DNA of 56,362 nucleotides, taken from positions 1 to 56,362 of the forward strand of contig CALXRR010000004.1 in assembly GCA_944390905.1 (NCBI GenBank), read 5' to 3'. The DNA comes from an uncultured Alphaproteobacteria bacterium. GTDB lineage: Bacteria; Pseudomonadota; Alphaproteobacteria; RF32; CAG-239. Position 1 is the stretch's first letter. Each line of letters opens with the position of its first letter. A program made the position numbers and the translations under genes. Below, one piece after another: positions 1,087 to 45,488 of the stretch. The notes below the pieces were generated by a model, which did no database searches, was not told the origin of the DNA, and was given only the letters and a program-made list of their open reading frames with translations.

Positions 1087-1121
1087 AAAAAAAGGCTCCA
1101 AGCCAAAACTTGGAGCCTTTT
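1087..1121. terminator. Bidirectional terminator
   Basis: The stem AAAAGGCTCCAAG/CTTGGAGCCTTTT has a short loop. It lies between two convergent genes (543-1079 and grpE) and can serve both. Its sequence is close to the terminator at 437-472. Confidence 0.75.
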
Positions 1122-1130
1122 GCTTTATGG

Positions 1131-1739
1131 TTATTTTCCGCCTTTGGTGACGACGACCATAGCTTCACGCAGGATGCGGTCGTTTATCATGTATCCGGTT
1201 TGGAGCTCGGCTACAATGGTGCCGGCGGGTTTGTCTTTGTCCTCAACCTCTTGGATAACCTGATGGAAGTTGGGATCAAAGTGTTTGCCTTCAATATCCA
1301 TCTTTTTGATGCCAAACTTCTCAAAAACTTTATCAAGCTCGTGCTGGGTCATTTCAACGCCGGCAAGCAGGCTCTTTAAGTGTTCGCAATCATTCTTTTT
1401 ATCTTCGGGAATCGATTTTAAGGCGCGGTCAAGGTTGTCGGCGACGCTTAAAAGGTTTTTGGCAAAGGAAGATACGGCGTATTTGTTGTTCTTTTCAATC
1501 TCTTGAGTGCAGCGGCGTTTGGTGTTCTCTGCATCAGCATAGGCTCGCAAAAAGTCTTCTTTCAGCTTTTTGTTTTCGGCTTTGAGGGTTTCAATCTCGT
1601 CAAGCTCAGGTGCGGCGGCTTCGGCCGTGGCTATATTTTCAGCTTGAGGTTGAGCTTCAGCCGGAGTTGCTACGGCAGCGCTTTCTTCAACAGAAGAAGT
1701 TTCTTTTGCCTCTGAACCGTGATTTTTGTTGTGTTTCAT
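1131..1739 (-). CDS. grpE: GrpE, nucleotide exchange factor for DnaK
   Basis: GrpE is the cytosolic factor that releases ADP from DnaK in the Hsp70 cycle. The product is 202 aa, the usual size. It has a disordered Ala/Glu-rich N-terminus (about 1-45), a long coiled coil (about 48-110, with ENTKRRCTQEIE) and a C-terminal beta domain ending in the family signature around GYMINDRILREAMVVV. ATG 1739 is preceded by an AGAGGAAA-type site. No CIRCE operator or hrcA neighbour is visible. It is transcribed divergently from the glycogen synthase gene. Confidence 0.96.
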   Translation of the reverse strand: MKHNKNHGSEAKETSSVEESAAVATPAEAQPQAENIATAEAAAPELDEIETLKAENKKLKEDFLRAYADAENTKRRCTQEIEKNNKYAVSSFAKNLLSVADNLDRALKSIPEDKKNDCEHLKSLLAGVEMTQHELDKVFEKFGIKKMDIEGKHFDPNFHQVIQEVEDKDKPAGTIVAELQTGYMINDRILREAMVVVTKGGK

Positions 1740-1858
1740 ATCTTTTCCTCTTTAAATCTTGGAGATTTATGTTAATTTATTATCTGTTATAAAACTTAGT
1801 GATTAAATCTTGTTAAGTCAAGAGCTGAAAGTGCTTTTTGCCAAATGCGGAGGAGAAA

Positions 1859-3898
1859 ATGCCTGAATGGGTTGAGGCTTTGAAAATGTCTGATTTTAAA
1901 ATGTTAATGCCGGATTTTAACCGCAAAAAGAAAGCTCCGTATTATTGGCTGCCCAAAACACCAAGAATTAAGCAAATGCAAAACTTGGGTAAAGTCCAGT
2001 GTCATGGTTTGATTGAGTGGCCAGAAATTGAAGAGCTAAAAGCGTGGATGATTTCAGCTGAGACGGCTCAGTTTATGAAAATGGGCGGGCTGGGTATGAT
2101 TGCATCTGAGCTGCCGGAGGCGTATAATCGGATGTATGCCGGTGAAGGTGATGATATTAAAGTGGTGACCCCGTTGTATTTGGGTAATACCGGAAAGAAA
2201 AAAGCATCATTTGAAGACGGAGTGTATTATGGTGCTGAGGGCAAAAGCGCCAAGCTTGATAAAGTTACCACAATTGAAGTGCCGTTTTGTGATGACGGGG
2301 CAAAGCTTTCTAACCACAAAGTGGTGGTGTGGAAGTGTGAAGTCAGCGGTGTGACTTATATTTTGCTGGAAAACGAGCGTTTCTTCTCAATCAATCCGCA
2401 TAAGGAGAATCCATCAGCTCAGGACGGCTGCTATGTGTATAATATTCATGGAGTTGATGAAACCGAACGGTTTGCCTTTTTTACTAAGGCGGTGTATGTG
2501 TTACTCAAAGATGTGTATGAAAATACGCACAAAAAGTTTGTGCAGCCTAATTTGATGATTGCGAATGATTGGCATAGCGGTGAGCTGGCAGGGCTGCTTA
2601 AGTATTTGACCTTGGCTCAAGAGGAGCAGGGGGTGATTAATTCTAAGTTGGCTGAAAAGCTGCAGCAAATTCCGGTGGTGCATATTGCGCACCATTTGGG
2701 ATATCAGGGCTGGGATTATAAAAATACGGCGCGCCTGTTGAACTCGCTGTATGAATATTCAACCGCGATGGTGTATCGTAATGCCAAGCCGATTAAAAAC
2801 ACTAATCCGCGGACGCAAAACGTGTTGGTGGTGTATGATTGTTTTAATCAGGCCGGTTGCAACTTTCATCTGGCAGACAGAGTAGTGACCGTGTCTAAAA
2901 ACTATTTGGAAGAAGTGTCAAGGTTTTTGGACTTTGGCTGGGATTTTCGCGATGTCTTGAAAATCAGAAAAGACCATGGGACTTTCCTTGGCATTGTCAA
3001 TGGTTATGATAAAGTCAAAATCACCCCAAGTGCCGAGAAAATTAAAGCCGTAAATGCCTTTTTTGAATGTACGGATTTTGTGCCGTATGATGAAAATAAT
3101 CTGGAGGCCAAAAACCATAATAAAGCCGAGTTCTTAAAGCTGCTTGGAAAGCTTAGCTCCGATAAAGCTTATAAAGAAAAGAAGCTGCCGTTGGTGGAGT
3201 TTTATAAGTTTGATGACATCAGCAGGGAGGTGAAGAATCCGGCTGAAGCTCCGGTCTTTTGCGCAACCAGCAGAATGGTGGAGCAAAAGGGTTATGATAT
3301 TGCCGCTAAGTCAATTATGAAACTAACCGAAAAATATAAAAATGATACTGATAAAGTTGAAGTGCCGCTGTTTGTGATGGGTGGTGCCGGTGATGTGAAG
3401 TATTTTAATTATCTGAAAAAGCTTAAAGATGATGCGGCTAAAATCAACCCCAAAGCGGCAAAGCGAATCTTTGTGTTCAAGGGGTATAAGGACGAGTTTG
3501 CTTATGCTATTCAGTTGGCGTCAGATTTCTATATGATGCCGTGCAGGTTTGAGCCTTGCGGATTGACCCAGATGGAGGCTATGGCTAAGGGGGCTTTGCC
3601 GGTGGCAATGTCTACCGGAGGATTGGTGGATACGATTGATAACGGGGTCGACGGATTCAGAACCGAGGTGTTCTTTGTCGGCAAAGACAGAATCTATGGC
3701 AGCAATTTGGCGGCGCAGCGCCTCAAAAACAACGTAAATGCTTATGCGGATACTTTGCAAAATATTCTTGATATTTTTTATCATAATCCCGATATTATCA
3801 ACGTTATGAAAAAGCACGCCATGCAGAAAGATTTTAGCTGGAATCAGGGTGCAATACAGGCGTATCATTCATTGTTTCATAAAGGTTATGTAGCTTAA
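1859..3898 (+). CDS. glgA: Glycogen/starch synthase (GT5), long form
   Basis: The enzyme transfers glucose from ADP- or UDP-glucose to alpha-1,4-glucan chains. I chose ATG 1859 because GCGGAGGAG lies just upstream; an in-frame TTG at 1838 lacks a site. The product is 679 aa against about 480 for typical bacterial GlgA. The glucan synthase nucleotide loop KMGGLG is at residues 74-79, after a ~65-residue N-terminal extension. The C-terminal GT1-fold signature FEPCGLTQMEAM is at about 564-575, with the two acidic residues of the E-X7-E motif. No glgB, glgC or glgP is adjacent, so the glycogen pathway is not clustered here. Family assignment is firm; the sugar donor is not. Confidence 0.9.
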   Translation: MPEWVEALKMSDFKMLMPDFNRKKKAPYYWLPKTPRIKQMQNLGKVQCHGLIEWPEIEELKAWMISAETAQFMKMGGLGMIASELPEAYNRMYAGEGDDIKVVTPLYLGNTGKKKASFEDGVYYGAEGKSAKLDKVTTIEVPFCDDGAKLSNHKVVVWKCEVSGVTYILLENERFFSINPHKENPSAQDGCYVYNIHGVDETERFAFFTKAVYVLLKDVYENTHKKFVQPNLMIANDWHSGELAGLLKYLTLAQEEQGVINSKLAEKLQQIPVVHIAHHLGYQGWDYKNTARLLNSLYEYSTAMVYRNAKPIKNTNPRTQNVLVVYDCFNQAGCNFHLADRVVTVSKNYLEEVSRFLDFGWDFRDVLKIRKDHGTFLGIVNGYDKVKITPSAEKIKAVNAFFECTDFVPYDENNLEAKNHNKAEFLKLLGKLSSDKAYKEKKLPLVEFYKFDDISREVKNPAEAPVFCATSRMVEQKGYDIAAKSIMKLTEKYKNDTDKVEVPLFVMGGAGDVKYFNYLKKLKDDAAKINPKAAKRIFVFKGYKDEFAYAIQLASDFYMMPCRFEPCGLTQMEAMAKGALPVAMSTGGLVDTIDNGVDGFRTEVFFVGKDRIYGSNLAAQRLKNNVNAYADTLQNILDIFYHNPDIINVMKKHAMQKDFSWNQGAIQAYHSLFHKGYVA

Positions 3899-5391: not shown

Positions 5392-6336
5392 CTAGAAAGC
5401 CATGACCGGGCGAACGGAGAAACGATCTGCGGCATCGTTTTTACTATAATGAAACATAGAGTTATTACCGTTAGTAGCTGCGAAAAAGTTCCAAGGTTCA
5501 TAAATAGAATACGCTGATGATGATAAAATAATCTCCCCATAGTTGGCTACATTACCGAGCGTGGTACCTCCTGCAGTGGTAATACCAGCATTGACTTTAG
5601 AAAAATTGACGGCATTATTAATATGATTTAATAATCCTGCGGATGGAAGACACCAGCTTTTACCACTTGGGGTGCCGGTTGGACTATAATTTTTAGCGGC
5701 CCATACTGCCGGATATTTTGAACTATTGCCATATGTCGCAATAATCTCCGTATTGGTACAGCTGGCGTGTATATCAGTTAAATTGGTGTTTGATGTGGTT
5801 GTTAAAATGCCATCAATATTAACAAATTCGTTAGACCACATTATTTTAGTTGCTGATGGTTTATATGCTATTATCCAACCGTTTTCGCTGGCGGATTTTT
5901 CATAGATTACTACACCCAGCAAAGTTTTAGAGCTTTCAAGTTTATCAGAGCAAGTACCGTCACTGTAATACAATGCTCCGATGACGCAGTTGGTCTTGTA
6001 GTCGTATCCACATATTTTATTAGTTGCGTCCCAAGTGTAACCGTTGACACAAGAACAATAATTATATTTCCCATTGCAGGCTTTTCCGACCCCTCCAGAA
6101 TATCCGGTGCCGATGCAGGAAAGAGTGAAGCTGTATTCATTGCAAAATTCCGATTCAGATTTGAAGCATGCCCATTTGTTGCCAAAGGGGCATTTGACGC
6201 CAGAGCCGCCGGAGCAGCTTGTTTCGGTATAGCCCAAAGTGGCGCAATCTTGGGTGGCAACACACTGGGCAGAGGTTAAACTTGGGATTAAGGATAGACT
6301 TGTCCCGATAAATAGAAAAAGTTTAGTATTAGTCAT
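5392..6336 (-). CDS. Secreted Cys-rich protein with DUF1566-like C-terminus (paralog 1)
   Basis: The product is 314 aa. Residues 1-23 are a Sec signal peptide ending at an SAQC-type cleavage region. Residues ~24-115 are Cys-rich, opening with a stretch shared with both paralogs (QCVATQDCATLGYTE, then GVKCPFGNKWACF). The rest is DUF1566-like, with a GVVIYEKSA strand, a WCLPSAGLL motif and the terminal SVRPVMAF. DUF1566 domains often adopt a C-type-lectin-like fold, so a surface binding role is plausible but unproven. The last 28 nt are identical to those of 28164-29108. A ~235-nt structured leader lies upstream. Confidence 0.85.
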   Translation of the reverse strand: MTNTKLFLFIGTSLSLIPSLTSAQCVATQDCATLGYTETSCSGGSGVKCPFGNKWACFKSESEFCNEYSFTLSCIGTGYSGGVGKACNGKYNYCSCVNGYTWDATNKICGYDYKTNCVIGALYYSDGTCSDKLESSKTLLGVVIYEKSASENGWIIAYKPSATKIMWSNEFVNIDGILTTTSNTNLTDIHASCTNTEIIATYGNSSKYPAVWAAKNYSPTGTPSGKSWCLPSAGLLNHINNAVNFSKVNAGITTAGGTTLGNVANYGEIILSSSAYSIYEPWNFFAATNGNNSMFHYSKNDAADRFSVRPVMAF

Positions 6337-6340
6337 TTCA

Positions 6341-6577
6341 CAACACCCTTTGTCTTAATGGTTATAAAAACAACGTCCACTCTTTGATGACAAAGGGCGG
6401 ACGGGTGTTGCAAACCGTAACAGTATATACGGCCCGGCATTTTCAAGCCAAGGCTCTTATAGTACCGGCACCCGCCCCAAGAGGCATATAAGCACCGGTA
6501 ATCATTATTTTAAGTCGTTATACCTAAACGACTATACTGTGAAGGGTTTGCACGCCCTGACGGACAGACTTTGTCCG
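6341..6577 (-). promoter_or_regulatory. Structured 5' leader of Cys-rich gene 1
   Basis: On the minus strand, in transcript order, I see hairpin A (6561-6577, CGGAC/GTCCG), hairpin B (6543-6558, AGGG/CCCT), hairpin C (6514-6532, GTCGTT/AACGAC), a TTAAAAT linker, hairpin D (6464-6499, ACCGG/CCGGT) and a three-way junction (6341-6410). The junction has an outer stem CAACACCC/GGGTGTTG, an arm at 6375-6402 and an arm at 6350-6373 with TAACCA in its loop. The likely Shine-Dalgarno AAAGGG overlaps the 3' side of the outer stem. The same order of elements, with different paired bases, precedes 44712. Confidence 0.7.
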
Positions 6578-6802
6578 CTAATCGAAATTTTAGCATAACA
6601 GAGCTTAAAAATCAATGAATAAGTCTTGAGAGATAGAAATATCTTGGAATGATGGTACTTAGTATTATTTGGTTGATTTTGTCTAGTAGTTTTTAGAGAG
6701 GAGTGATTAAAGAGGAAGAGTTGGAGGAGAATGAAGGAGGGCAAGGATTGGAGGGAGGAGGGGCGTTTGGGAAAATGGGGAGAGGTAAGGAGAAAGGGAA
6801 AG

Positions 6803-6842
6803 GCTCCGGCTTGAGCCGGAGGCACAAGCTATTCAGCTTGTG
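6803..6842. repeat. Double-hairpin repeat, copy 1
   Basis: Two adjacent hairpins: CTCCGGC/GCCGGAG with loop TTGA, then CACAAGCT/AGCTTGTG with loop ATTC, followed by GGATGG and TTTTTTATAA. Further copies are at 6964, 29581 and 29877. Confidence 0.7.
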
Positions 6843-6963
6843 GAGGATGGTTTTTTATAATGGTATAGGTTTGAAGTTAATAAAGAGATATTGCCCTGCA
6901 ATGAGCACTATTTAAGCAACGCGTTTTCTTTGTCTCTATCCCTCAATAGCTAAGTTAGGGGGT

Positions 6964-7019
6964 GAAGCTGGCACAGCTTCTCCGGCAGGGGCCGGAGGCA
7001 CAGGCTGAAACAGCCTGTG
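6964..7019. repeat. Hairpin repeat, copy 2 (three hairpins)
   Basis: Three consecutive hairpins: GAAGCTG/CAGCTTC, CTCCGGC/GCCGGAG and CACAGGCTG/CAGCCTGTG. Compared with the other copies the third stem carries a paired A-to-G and T-to-C exchange that keeps the pairing. It is followed by GGATG and a T-run. Confidence 0.7.
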
Positions 7020-7251
7020 GTGGATGTTGTTTTTATAAGGCATGCTGAAAGATAAGGTTTTGAGTGGTTGGTTTGGGTAAGGTTATGTATTGTGGTTAAT
7101 TTTGTCTGGCAGAGGAGAAAGGGGAGGGAGGAAAAAGAAAAGAGGCTGTACAGTTGCGGCGGGGATAAGGGACGAAGTGAAGGGCGAGGAGTGTTTAATA
7201 CTTATTTGGTTCGGCTTGACCTCTATGATAAGCTGAGATAAAATCTCGGTT

Positions 7252-28163: not shown

Positions 28164-28310
28164 CTAGAAAGCCATGACCGGGCGAACGGAGGTGTGGTAG
28201 CCGTTGTACTTACCGTTGCCGTGCATATTGAACGAACCATTCGGATTGGCGCTGAAGCTCCACGCGTCGTAGTAGGAGTACTCAGACGACGACCAAACGC
28301 TCTCAGCGCC
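28164..28310 (-). other. Candidate variable repeat at the 3' end of Cys-rich gene 2
   Basis: The last ~49 codons are GC-richer than the rest of the gene. Many are NNC codons: TAC, TCC, GAC, AGC, CAC, AAC and ACC fill the positions after the WSSSE motif up to the terminal SVRPVMAF. Random change of AAC codons at their two adenines would give exactly this set. The final 28 nt are identical to those of gene 1 and could act as the priming end. No template repeat or reverse transcriptase is in the window. Confidence 0.4.
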
Positions 28311-29108
28311 GTTGTAAGTGTTTCCTAGGATTGTTGCTGCACTGGTACCTGCTTTGGACTGAATTTCCAAAATAGCAGCGTTGAATTTGGTGAAGTTAGC
28401 TGAATTATCTAAGGCGTTTCTTAATAATCCGCCTGATGGCAGGCACCATGTTTTACCTCCTTCTTTATAATTCTTAGTTGCCCATGCCGCAGGATATTTT
28501 GAGCTGTTACCTTGAGCGGTAATTTTATCCGTATTGGTACAACTTGCCTGAATATCGGTCAAACTTGATTCTGATGTTATGTTAGTAAGCCCCGGAATAT
28601 CAGTTTCATATCCACCCCATGCAATATCGGTAGCTACTGGCTTATGCGTCATCACCCAACCATTCTGGCTGGCTGATTTTTCATAGATTACAATACCAAG
28701 CAATTTCTTGCTGGAAATATAATCATTTGAGCAAGTACCATCAGCATAATACAACGCTCCGATGGTACAGTTCGCGGTATTAGCCTCGCAGGATTTGGTA
28801 TCCGCGTTCCATGTAAGATTCGCAGCACATTTACAGATATTGTATTTGCCGTTACAGGCTTTGCCGGCGCCGCCGGTTTGGTTGGTGCCAGTGCAGGAGA
28901 GGGTGAAGCCATATTCATTACAGAATTCCGAATCGGATTTGAAGCAAGCCCATTTGTTGCCGAAGGGACATTTGACGCCATTGCCGCCGGAGCAAGAGGT
29001 TTCGGTATAGCCCAAAGTCGCGCAATCTTGAGTGGCGACGCACTGGGCAAAAGTTAAATTTGGGATTAAGGACAGAGATGTCCCTATCAATAAAAAGCGT
29101 ATTTTCAT
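28164..29108 (-). CDS. Secreted Cys-rich protein with DUF1566-like C-terminus (paralog 2)
   Basis: The product is 314 aa, the same length as paralog 1. It has a signal peptide (~1-21) and a Cys-rich N-terminal domain starting QCVATQDCATLGYTE and continuing GVKCPFGNKWACF. The DUF1566-like domain has GIVIYEKSA, WCLPSGGLL, VWSSSEYSYYDAW and SVRPVMAF. The first ~90 residues are close to paralog 1, the central part much less so, and the last 9 codons are again identical at nucleotide level. A long structured leader precedes it. It is probably exported and surface-exposed, with a binding role inferred only from the fold. Confidence 0.87.
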   Translation of the reverse strand: MKIRFLLIGTSLSLIPNLTFAQCVATQDCATLGYTETSCSGGNGVKCPFGNKWACFKSDSEFCNEYGFTLSCTGTNQTGGAGKACNGKYNICKCAANLTWNADTKSCEANTANCTIGALYYADGTCSNDYISSKKLLGIVIYEKSASQNGWVMTHKPVATDIAWGGYETDIPGLTNITSESSLTDIQASCTNTDKITAQGNSSKYPAAWATKNYKEGGKTWCLPSGGLLRNALDNSANFTKFNAAILEIQSKAGTSAATILGNTYNGAESVWSSSEYSYYDAWSFSANPNGSFNMHGNGKYNGYHTSVRPVMAF

Positions 29109-29114
29109 AACTGA

Positions 29115-29293
29115 AGCTCCATTGTTTTTATAGTTAAAACAAATGCCGCTTAGTTATGGAACCAAGACGGCATGGAGCTCAAAAACTGTCTAGATAGCAG
29201 TCGCTGTTATTCAATATATTACCAGCACTCCACACCAAGGTGGAATTTTATCTAGAGGTGTTTTTGAGACACCACAGCCGGTTCATCCAACTG
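29115..29293 (-). promoter_or_regulatory. Structured 5' leader of Cys-rich gene 2
   Basis: In transcript order on the minus strand: hairpin CAGTTGG/CCGGCTG (29275-29293), hairpin GGTGT/ACACC (29257-29273), a TAAAATT linker, hairpin GCTG/CAGC (29203-29226), then a three-way junction (29115-29179). The junction has a perfect 8-bp outer stem AGCTCCAT/ATGGAGCT, an arm closed by ATGCCG/CGGCAT (29143-29173) and an arm TTGTTTT/AAAACAA (29122-29142) with AACTA in the loop. GGAG, 8 nt before the start codon, is inside the outer stem. Confidence 0.7.
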
Positions 29294-29580
29294 CAGATTC
29301 AGAATACCACTTTGGGGCAAAGGTTGCAAGCGGTTTTTGATGTAATGGTGTAATATCAATTTTCAAGGCAGAATGGTGGTATTTAAAGTTGTTTGGCTAA
29401 TTTTGTCTAGCAATTTTAGGGAAGGGGAAGGTAAAGGAGGAGTAGAATAGGGAGGCAGGGGATTGAAGAATGGAGTAGTTGAAGGAGGGTAAAGATTGGC
29501 GGGAGGAGGGGCGTTTGGGGATAGTTGGGATTGAAGAGAAGTTTAGGAAAATGTGGGCTGGCTAAGGGTAAGGGGAAAGG

Positions 29581-44361: not shown

Positions 44362-44478
44362 TTTGTTAATACATAGTTTCATTTTATTGTAACTGCTTGA
44401 ATTTTTTATTTTAGTATTTATATGTTTTTTGCTTATTGCTTATTGCTTTTTTAGGCTTGTTATGTTAAAATAGTGATA

Positions 44479-44711
44479 GCTGGTAAGGATATACCAGCTA
44501 GGGTTTTACCGCCCTTCCGTACGGGTCGTTTAGCATAACGACTTAAAATTGATATGCTGGCATTTGTATATTTTTATATGCGGGTGCCAGCGTCATAAAG
44601 GCTCCGCCTGAAAGCGCTGGGGCTGTTCGTATGGCAGTCGGTAAACACCCGCTCCTTTGATTGGTTTCAAAGGGGCGTTCTTTTAACCATAAAAGATAAG
44701 GTGTTTAGACT
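44479..44711 (+). promoter_or_regulatory. Structured 5' leader of Cys-rich gene 3
   Basis: Elements in order: hairpin A GCTGGTA/TACCAGC (44479-44498), hairpin B AGGG/CCCT (44500-44515), hairpin C GTCGTT/AACGAC (44525-44542), TTAAAATT linker, hairpin D GCTGGCA/TGCCAGC (44556-44591), then a three-way junction (44643-44706). The junction has outer stem AAACACC/GGTGTTT, arm 1 with an 11-bp stem (44650-44677) and arm 2 CTTTT/AAAAG with AACCAT in the loop (44680-44695). AAGG, the likely Shine-Dalgarno, overlaps the outer stem. The ~115 bp before it (44362-44478) are AT-rich and probably hold the promoter. Confidence 0.72.
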
Positions 44712-45488
44712 ATGATTAATACTAGATTATATTTAATTATTGGGACTTCTTTGTCCTTAATACCAACTTTTGCTTACGCTCAATGTGTTGCTACGCAAGA
44801 TTGTGCTGCTTTGGGATATACCGAGGCAAGCTGTTCGGGCGGCAGCGGTGTAAAATGTCCGTTTGGTAATAAATGGGCTTGTTTTGAAAATGAAGAAAAT
44901 ATTTGTAAAAAAAATGGTTTTACAAAATCATGTACAGGAACCGGATATGTCGGAGGTGAAGGTCAGGCCTGCGGCGGAAAGTATGCTCAGTGTTTGTGTG
45001 CAAACGGATATGAATGGCAAAATGGAAGTTGTCAGTTCTGGAATGGTGAAAACGGAAATTTATATTATTGTAATGGGAAGGTTATTGGAGTGAAAACTTC
45101 CGGTATGGAGTTTTATGTTGCAATGAAAGATATTGGTGTGTTTGAATGGAGTGATGCTGACAGTAGTTGTCGGAATCATAGTTTTTGTAGCGGTATTAAT
45201 GGAAAATTACCAACAAAAAATCAGCTTGAAACAATTTATAATAATAAATCTTCACTCAATAATTTGATGCTTGCAAATACAGGAAATAAGTTGGTTGAAG
45301 GTTTTTATTGGTCGGCTTCGTCTGAAAGAGTATGTTCTTGTGCTGGTGCGAATCCTCAGGGATGTACCCCCGATAATCCTTTTACAACTTGTTCTTATGA
45401 ATATGTCGTGGTAAATATGGCTAATGGTTCAGCAACTACAAAAAATAAGAGTAGTAGCTATAATGTAAGGGCTGTATTTAATCCTTAA
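44712..45488 (+). CDS. Secreted Cys-rich protein with DUF1566-like C-terminus (paralog 3)
   Basis: The product is 258 aa, shorter than its two paralogs. It has a signal peptide (~1-23) and the shared Cys-rich start QCVATQDCAALGYTE, then GVKCPFGNKWACF. The DUF1566 part is more canonical than in the others: KVIGVKTSG, INGKLPTKNQLETIYNN, FYWSASSERV and a final YNVRAVFNP. An extra Cys-rich insertion (CSCAGANPQGC) lies before the last strands. It does not share the conserved 28-nt 3' end or the downstream hairpin of paralogs 1 and 2. Confidence 0.86.
   Translation: MINTRLYLIIGTSLSLIPTFAYAQCVATQDCAALGYTEASCSGGSGVKCPFGNKWACFENEENICKKNGFTKSCTGTGYVGGEGQACGGKYAQCLCANGYEWQNGSCQFWNGENGNLYYCNGKVIGVKTSGMEFYVAMKDIGVFEWSDADSSCRNHSFCSGINGKLPTKNQLETIYNNKSSLNNLMLANTGNKLVEGFYWSASSERVCSCAGANPQGCTPDNPFTTCSYEYVVVNMANGSATTKNKSSSYNVRAVFNP

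Follow-up and report, generated by a model that had tools for sequence, protein, structure and literature searches.

Leaders of a variable surface-protein gene family in an uncultured gut alphaproteobacterium resemble the C4/sRNA-Xcc1 antisense RNA module

The window (the whole stretch of DNA analysed, 56,362 nucleotides) contains three intact genes for cysteine-rich paralogs, each preceded by a long leader. The leaders were found where an earlier note on this DNA had placed them, at 44479-44711 on the plus strand (type A) and at 6341-6577 (type B) and 29115-29293 (type C) on the minus strand, and the stems named there are present. Their predicted fold energies are -100.5, -91.6 and -61.1 kcal/mol for types A, B and C, corresponding to z scores of -7.4, -5.0 and -4.7 against dinucleotide-preserving shuffles, with 0 of 200 shuffled sequences equally stable. 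At the level of sequence, a promoter-like element is located a few bases 5' of each leader start, rather than inside or downstream of the junction that faces the start codon, and the leaders are therefore probably transcribed. Consensus promoter scans did not pick up the elements of types A and C, which were read by eye only; the TTATGYTARAAT of the type A extended -10 is kept in type A and B copies. Long pyrimidine-rich stretches, possibly involved in cassette exchange, lie directly upstream of the type B and C leaders (6580-6830 and 29380-29500, both on the minus strand).

The earlier note described a three-way junction with the Shine-Dalgarno sequence (SD) buried in its outer stem. The stem hiding the SD is supported by the folds, and the SD pairs at about -12 kcal/mol with the 3' strand of an upstream enclosing stem (referred to below as the C4-type stem). 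The rest of the junction is better read as this SD/anti-SD stem, P7, surrounding a terminator-like hairpin, P8, with the U-rich tail of P8 forming P9. The terminator is imperfect in the window copies, and the type B P8 was not called by the terminator scan. Coordinates of these and the remaining features are collected in Table 1.

Table 1. Predicted features of the three window leaders, and of the retroelement locus L067 elsewhere in the same genome (L067 coordinates are those of its own stretch).
Feature	Position	Strand	Basis
Type A leader promoter, extended -10 (TTATGTTAAAAT)	44460-44471	+	read by eye
Type A hairpin P1	44479-44498	+	fold; one covarying pair
Type A hairpin P2, a1-like box in loop (a1 44504-44511)	44499-44515	+	fold, covariation, phage P1 a1/b1 layout
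Type A b1-like box, strand S (partner 44628-44634)	44517-44523	+	cis duplex energies, covariation
Type A hairpin P4 and linker TTAAAAT, sequence nearly invariant	44525-44549	+	copy alignment
Type A hairpin P5; 3' strand GCGGGTG (44580-44586) doubles as 5' strand of C4-type enclosing stem	44556-44591	+	fold
Type A C4-like antisense module, enclosing stem GCGGGTG/CACCCGC and P6 hairpin	44580-44652	+	duplex energies, covariation
Hairpin H of type A C4-like module, b' box 44628-44634 in loop	44623-44637	+	duplex energies, covariation
a' box of type A module	44639-44645	+	duplex energies, covariation
AACACCCGC, 3' strand of C4-type stem and anti-SD (5' strand of P7)	44644-44652	+	fold
Type A P8 terminator-like hairpin, tail TTCTTTT	44650-44684	+	terminator scan: 11 pairs, 6 G-C, tail TTCTTTTAAC
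Type A SD and start codon region AAGGTGTTTAGACTATG	44698-44714	+	sequence
Cys-rich secreted protein with Lcl_C-like C-terminal domain (putative regulated gene)	44712-45488	+	PF07603, E 4.6e-7, below cut-off
Type B leader promoter TTGATT-17-TAAAAT, TG ahead of -10	6587-6615	-	promoter consensus scan
Type B hairpin P2 with a1 box (6545-6552, TGCAAACC) and b1 box (6533-6540, ACAGTATA)	6533-6559	-	duplex energies
Type B C4-like module	6391-6477	-	RF02221 match, 32.4 bits, E 4.1e-4 in 271 nt; E 5.9e-4 genome-wide
Type B b' hairpin (b' 6420-6427)	6415-6432	-	
Type B a' box	6409-6416	-	
Type B enclosing stem	6469-6477 / 6402-6409	-	
Type B P8 hairpin, then TTGTTTTT	6374-6403	-	fold
Type B SD and start codon region AAGGGTGTTGTGAAATG	6334-6350	-	sequence
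Type C leader promoter TTGCAA-17-TATTCT	29301-29329	-	read by eye
Type C hairpin P2 with a1 box (29260-29268, CTCAAAAAC) and b1 box (29249-29256, TCTAGATA)	29249-29273	-	fold
Type C b' hairpin 29185-29201, a' box 29178-29186, anti-SD GAGCTCCATGCC 29169-29180	29169-29201	-	
Type C SD and start codon region ATGGAGCTTCAGTTATG	29106-29122	-	sequence
L067 template repeats	2449-2577, 2719-2847, 2988-3130		
L067 reverse transcriptase	1087-2421	-	
L067 Avd	3218-3610	-	

Leaders were collected from stretches fetched around copies of the gene (76 matches to the plus-strand gene in its own genome, up to 126 in a sister species), yielding 56 type A/B leaders and, for type C, 42 stretches, some of them truncated at contig ends. 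Covariation among 48 copies was scored with a G-test and average product correction, against a null in which substitutions are reassigned to randomly chosen columns on a FastTree tree (our own R-scape-like script, not R-scape itself). Nine of 27,966 pairs were significant (E < 0.05), all nine Watson-Crick consistent in most alignment rows: one in P1, four in a pairing designated L2.S' and four in a pairing designated S.LH, with none elsewhere. Selected RNA structure, as proposed from the three window copies, is thus borne out by the z scores and by covariation, while the significant pairs fall only in P1 and in two pairings that the earlier note had not seen.

These two pairings are long-range. 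In L2.S' the loop of P2 (box a1) pairs with the strand (box a') immediately 5' of the anti-SD, and in S.LH the strand after P2 (box b1) pairs with the loop of the later hairpin H (box b'). They are both the most variable and the best supported pairings of the leader: the box sequences are different in nearly every copy and yet complementary in cis. Across 47 type A/B leaders the boxes pair at -19.2 kcal/mol in cis versus -8.7 with the partners of other copies, the cis partner being the best in 45 of them; for leaders of other genera the values are -21.1 in cis versus -9.3 in trans (cis best in 44 of 47). In type B the boxes diverge (0.41-0.46) to about the same extent as four-fold sites of the genes do (0.475-0.483), so the variety can be explained as drift with pairing kept, and neither selection for diversity nor hypermutation is needed. 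Between P4 and P6 divergence amounts to 0.02-0.27, and P4 with the TTAAAA linker is the most conserved sequence of the leader. In type B, covariation extends to the base preceding AACACCC and the one following the SD stem (Watson-Crick in 15 of 21, permutation p < 5e-5). The one near-identical pair seen by eye, the window plus-strand copy and locus L077, keeps its key of boxes.

Approximately 50 copies of the leader are present in the 1.63-Mb genome, nearly each with its own matched box pair, and many precede genes of the variable surface-protein family. A covariance model spanning P2 to S' (R1, 149 positions) recovered 23 copies in this genome, where a DNA pattern search located the 3' end of type C leaders at 27 additional sites. 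Searching with R1 detected the RNA in eight of 11 genomes of the genus; across the order it occurs in 113 of 153 genomes and 15 of 17 genera, mostly at 1-3 copies each. This entire order of uncultured gut Alphaproteobacteria would have kept a C4-type RNA in common use ahead of its genes.

Leader anatomy is cleaner in the other genera, reading AGGGCGT-NNN-AACCCTT, S strand, P4, GCCGT-LH-ACGG-TT-S'-AACATCCGCCCGC, with a C4 enclosing-stem sequence that hardly varies. On the 3' side of S' follow a G+C hairpin with a U-tract, cleaner than the one after P8 in the window copies, and then AAGGATGTT ahead of an ATG that usually lies ~50-70 nt past S'. The downstream genes in other genera are varied, encoding a PEGA lipoprotein, a pilin-type N-methylation protein, an EcoRI-type methylase, an outer-membrane barrel, a glycosyltransferase and Cys-rich relatives; no metabolic theme was found among downstream genes. 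At one locus (L094, G009:C120) a divergent leader ends at the start of MAELPILSVASLLRALGNERRLALMFYML, and the gene there looks by eye like one for an ArsR-type regulator rather than a Cys-rich protein.

At gathering threshold, Rfam 15 returned no match in the whole window and no known riboswitch or leader family, and a ligand riboswitch of a known class was set aside on this ground. Below threshold, the sRNA-Xcc1 model (RF02221) identified 25 places in the genome at E up to 1, of which 23 fall on type A/B or C leaders. The gathering threshold of 53 bits was not reached anywhere in this genome (best score 36.9) and the type A window leader gave no match; the type B window copy and 12 type C copies other than that of the window are matched. 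At a relaxed threshold RF02221 also matches the leader in 13 of 16 loci from other genera. Leader scores against the model range from 23 to 39 bits, and about half of the copies in this genome align to the full length of the model through their C4-like part. The C4 model itself (RF01695, gathering threshold 45 bits) matched nothing in this genome and gave 25.1-28.1 bits at leaders of other genera, scores too weak for a direct label.

Elements of the module could nevertheless be recognised in the leaders: upstream a1 and b1 boxes complementary to a' and b' in a downstream C4-like domain, and within that domain an enclosing stem, an inner hairpin, a hairpin with b' in its loop and a single-stranded a'. 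We therefore read the leaders as a chromosomal form of the C4/sRNA-Xcc1 antisense module that has diverged, occupies a novel setting and has an altered target site. A leader without an explanation is in this way connected with a long-known antisense RNA of phages. The view that no described family has this layout does not survive, as the a1/b1-a'/b' order is described for phage P1 and the RF02221 model picks out 23 leaders; nor does anything point to the ligand or temperature switch offered with it. An integron attC or other recombination site, suggested by the dyad structure and the integron context of RF02221, was rejected since the copies are scattered and C4 accounts for their complementarity. 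A phage origin of the present copies was also discarded, the P4/linker pattern being unmatched in viral contigs.

C4 is the antisense RNA by which phage P1 silences its antirepressor, and it is the differing a and b boxes that make immunity specific in phage P1 versus P7. In the phage P1 record a1, b1, C4, a2 and b2 occur in this order ahead of icd and ant, and in refolded C4 the loop of the final hairpin contains b', with a' on the strand directly after it. The order a1, b1, enclosing stem, tetraloop hairpin, b' hairpin, a' is common to P1/P7 C4 (RF01695, c4-a1b1) and the leaders, as is the divergence of complementary boxes between loci. The differences concern the target and the setting. Phage C4 belongs to one phage operon and controls the icd-ant antirepressor genes, whereas the leaders are dispersed chromosomal copies preceding secreted, envelope and other chromosomal genes, and carry, unlike C4, a terminator-like hairpin ahead of the SD. 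The phage a2/b2 target boxes lie at the SD; gene-specific a2/b2 boxes at the SD were not found in the present lineage, where the SD pairs instead with the C4-stem strand and its region shows no preference for the boxes of its own copy (-3.5 in cis and -3.2 in trans against b', -3.9 and -4.0 against a'). Relative to known C4, what appears new is a mass expansion among genes related to targets of a diversity-generating retroelement, with neither gene-specific a2/b2 nor a phage antirepressor. It has been reported that RNase P cuts C4 from a longer transcript, that one box blocks the ribosome-binding site and that the variable boxes give specificity (PMC5320573); the c4-a1b1 motif is listed in PMC2864571.

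Chromosomal C4-like copies have a precedent in the group 1 C4-derived sRNAs of Acinetobacter baumannii, which exist in many copies differing mainly in the a' box, are abundant and are apparently cut from longer transcripts (PMC5320573). While many chromosomal copies are common to both systems, the A. baumannii sRNAs maybe act on other targets, whereas here each copy lies in the 5' UTR of one gene and keeps its matching a1/b1. For sRNA-Xcc1, which has been described ahead of symE in integron cassettes (PMC12444791), the loci are of integron-cassette, plasmid or phage-like type in Pseudomonadota, and genes downstream of RF02221 loci include those for Bro-N, P22_AR_N, pRha and SymE proteins. Both share the enclosing stem, the b'-loop hairpin and the a' strand, together with a matched a1/b1 hairpin upstream that is omitted from the Rfam model. 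After b1 the sRNA-Xcc1 loci have a strong terminator-like hairpin, where the present leaders have P4 and place their terminator-like hairpin after the C4 part; the former also often carry a2/b2 over the SD. This arrangement of a1/b1 hairpin, terminator-like hairpin and often a2/b2 over the next SD was seen, for example, at L251, L255, L266-L269 and L277. An X/Y/Z energy test of RF02221 loci with long upstream stretches was not specific (cis best for X in 11 of 21 and for Z in 8 of 21), so the evidence for boxes in this class is visible complementarity, as at L251 (CTCAAAACC/GGTTTTGAG and CAAGTAG/CTACTTG). The comparison suggests that what is annotated as the trans-acting sRNA-Xcc1 corresponds to the 3' portion of a longer leader that has an a1/b1 of its own.

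The anatomy, covariation and distribution of the leaders and their resemblance to RF02221/C4 are observed directly, and from them we infer how the RNA might be processed and terminated, which way the switch might work and that it might act in trans. We consider it likely that the leader is a chromosomal C4-type module (c4-a1b1 plus a C4/sRNA-Xcc1-like RNA) within the 5' UTR of its own target gene, exerting gene-specific control of an antisense/attenuator type that would be off by default. A transcript starting at the promoter just upstream would first expose a1 in the P2 loop and b1 in strand S. Next would come the C4-like domain, comprising the enclosing stem, a hairpin and a second hairpin showing b' with a' alongside, followed by the terminator-like hairpin and, last, the SD. 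The strand after a' would be contested by the P5 3' strand, by the SD and, through its last bases, by the 5' arm of P8. In the off state the C4 stem would be open, its 3' strand (AACACCC, AACATCC or AGCTCC) pairing with the SD and the terminator being complete; many transcripts would then end at the terminator, producing a short C4-like RNA. If that strand instead closed the C4 stem with the P5 3' strand, the SD would be freed and the terminator would lose part of its 5' arm.

The pairings a1.a' and b1.b' would link the part of the transcript made first to the C4 domain, either in cis or through released RNA in trans, and as the boxes are matched only within one gene, this contact would be gene-specific. 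Because neither a' nor b' finds a gene-specific complement in the SD region, the leaders are unlikely simply to repeat what phage P1 does; they may instead feed back on a1/b1 of newly made transcripts or act solely in cis. If gene-specific boxes work, the result would be RNA-based addressing of each gene in a bacterium with dozens of variable surface proteins. A bolder version, which we put forward tentatively and hold to be rather doubtful, is that the bacterium has domesticated an immunity RNA of phages and uses it to address genes across its whole chromosome. Here some fifty leaders with mostly distinct boxes would each tune one surface-protein gene independently, perhaps with few expressed at once, and released RNA would act on a1/b1 of new transcripts as attenuation feedback, unlike P1 C4, since a2/b2 are lost.

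Three other explanations of the leaders were weighed against gene-specific antisense control. They could be C4-derived by descent and now act purely as intramolecular control of translation or termination, with the boxes only shaping the leader and no antisense function. A box divergence close to that of four-fold sites, for which drift suffices, and an SD lacking gene-specific a2/b2 are both consistent with this. However, C4 ancestry makes a free RNA plausible, a terminator-like hairpin stands ahead of the SD and the boxes are located in loops that open to partners, and we regard a purely intramolecular role as unlikely. Alternatively, the leader could be a new riboswitch or protein-binding element, with P4 and the TTAAAA linker as sensor, P5/P7/P8 as expression platform and a C4 likeness that is convergent. 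The conservation of P4 and linker fits such a sensor, the anti-SD, competing strand and terminator resemble a classical expression platform, and the wide variety of downstream genes is regulon-like. Against this, RF02221 detects the leaders independently, the order a1/b1/a'/b' is that of C4, a hairpin directly follows b1 in phage C4 leaders too, and the genes have no metabolic theme. Moreover, since the boxes that pair vary between copies, they cannot be read by any common factor, and gene-specific RNA-RNA pairing is the more economical reading. A sensor of this kind is, in our judgement, very improbable. Chance or repeat-driven folding of AT-rich upstream DNA has only the general ease of folding in its favour, against z scores of -4.7 to -7.4, nine covarying pairs and conservation of the RNA in 15 of 17 genera, and its probability is close to nil.

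The gene family itself appears to be in part the target of a diversity-generating retroelement. At locus L067 of the same genome (G000:C61) such an element combines genes for Avd and a reverse transcriptase with three template repeats in tandem. Several paralogs match these repeats at their 3' ends, the one in the window (28245-28297) weakly. At L044 and L065 the differences from the template repeats are mostly at template A (17 of 21 in one of the two, 11 of 15 in the other). The other matches are 62-71% identical with a weaker A bias, and most copies are therefore better called relatives of targets than proven targets. Orthologous chromosomal sites in a sister species, with flanks up to 98% identical, hold another paralog and a leader of another type or key. 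In the comparison of window 6580-7250 with L113 (G010:C17), the flank is 97.8% identical over 851 nt, while the leader is type B in G000 and type C in G010. From such sites, gene and leader seem to turn over together as cassettes. Elsewhere in the same genome, the leaders of L056, L058, L064 and L066 are cut in the middle of P5 with loss of the 3' half, and are joined to a different short upstream region with a promoter (TTGAAA-17-TATACT) close to the start codon; the remnant boxes of L064 are those of the intact L128.
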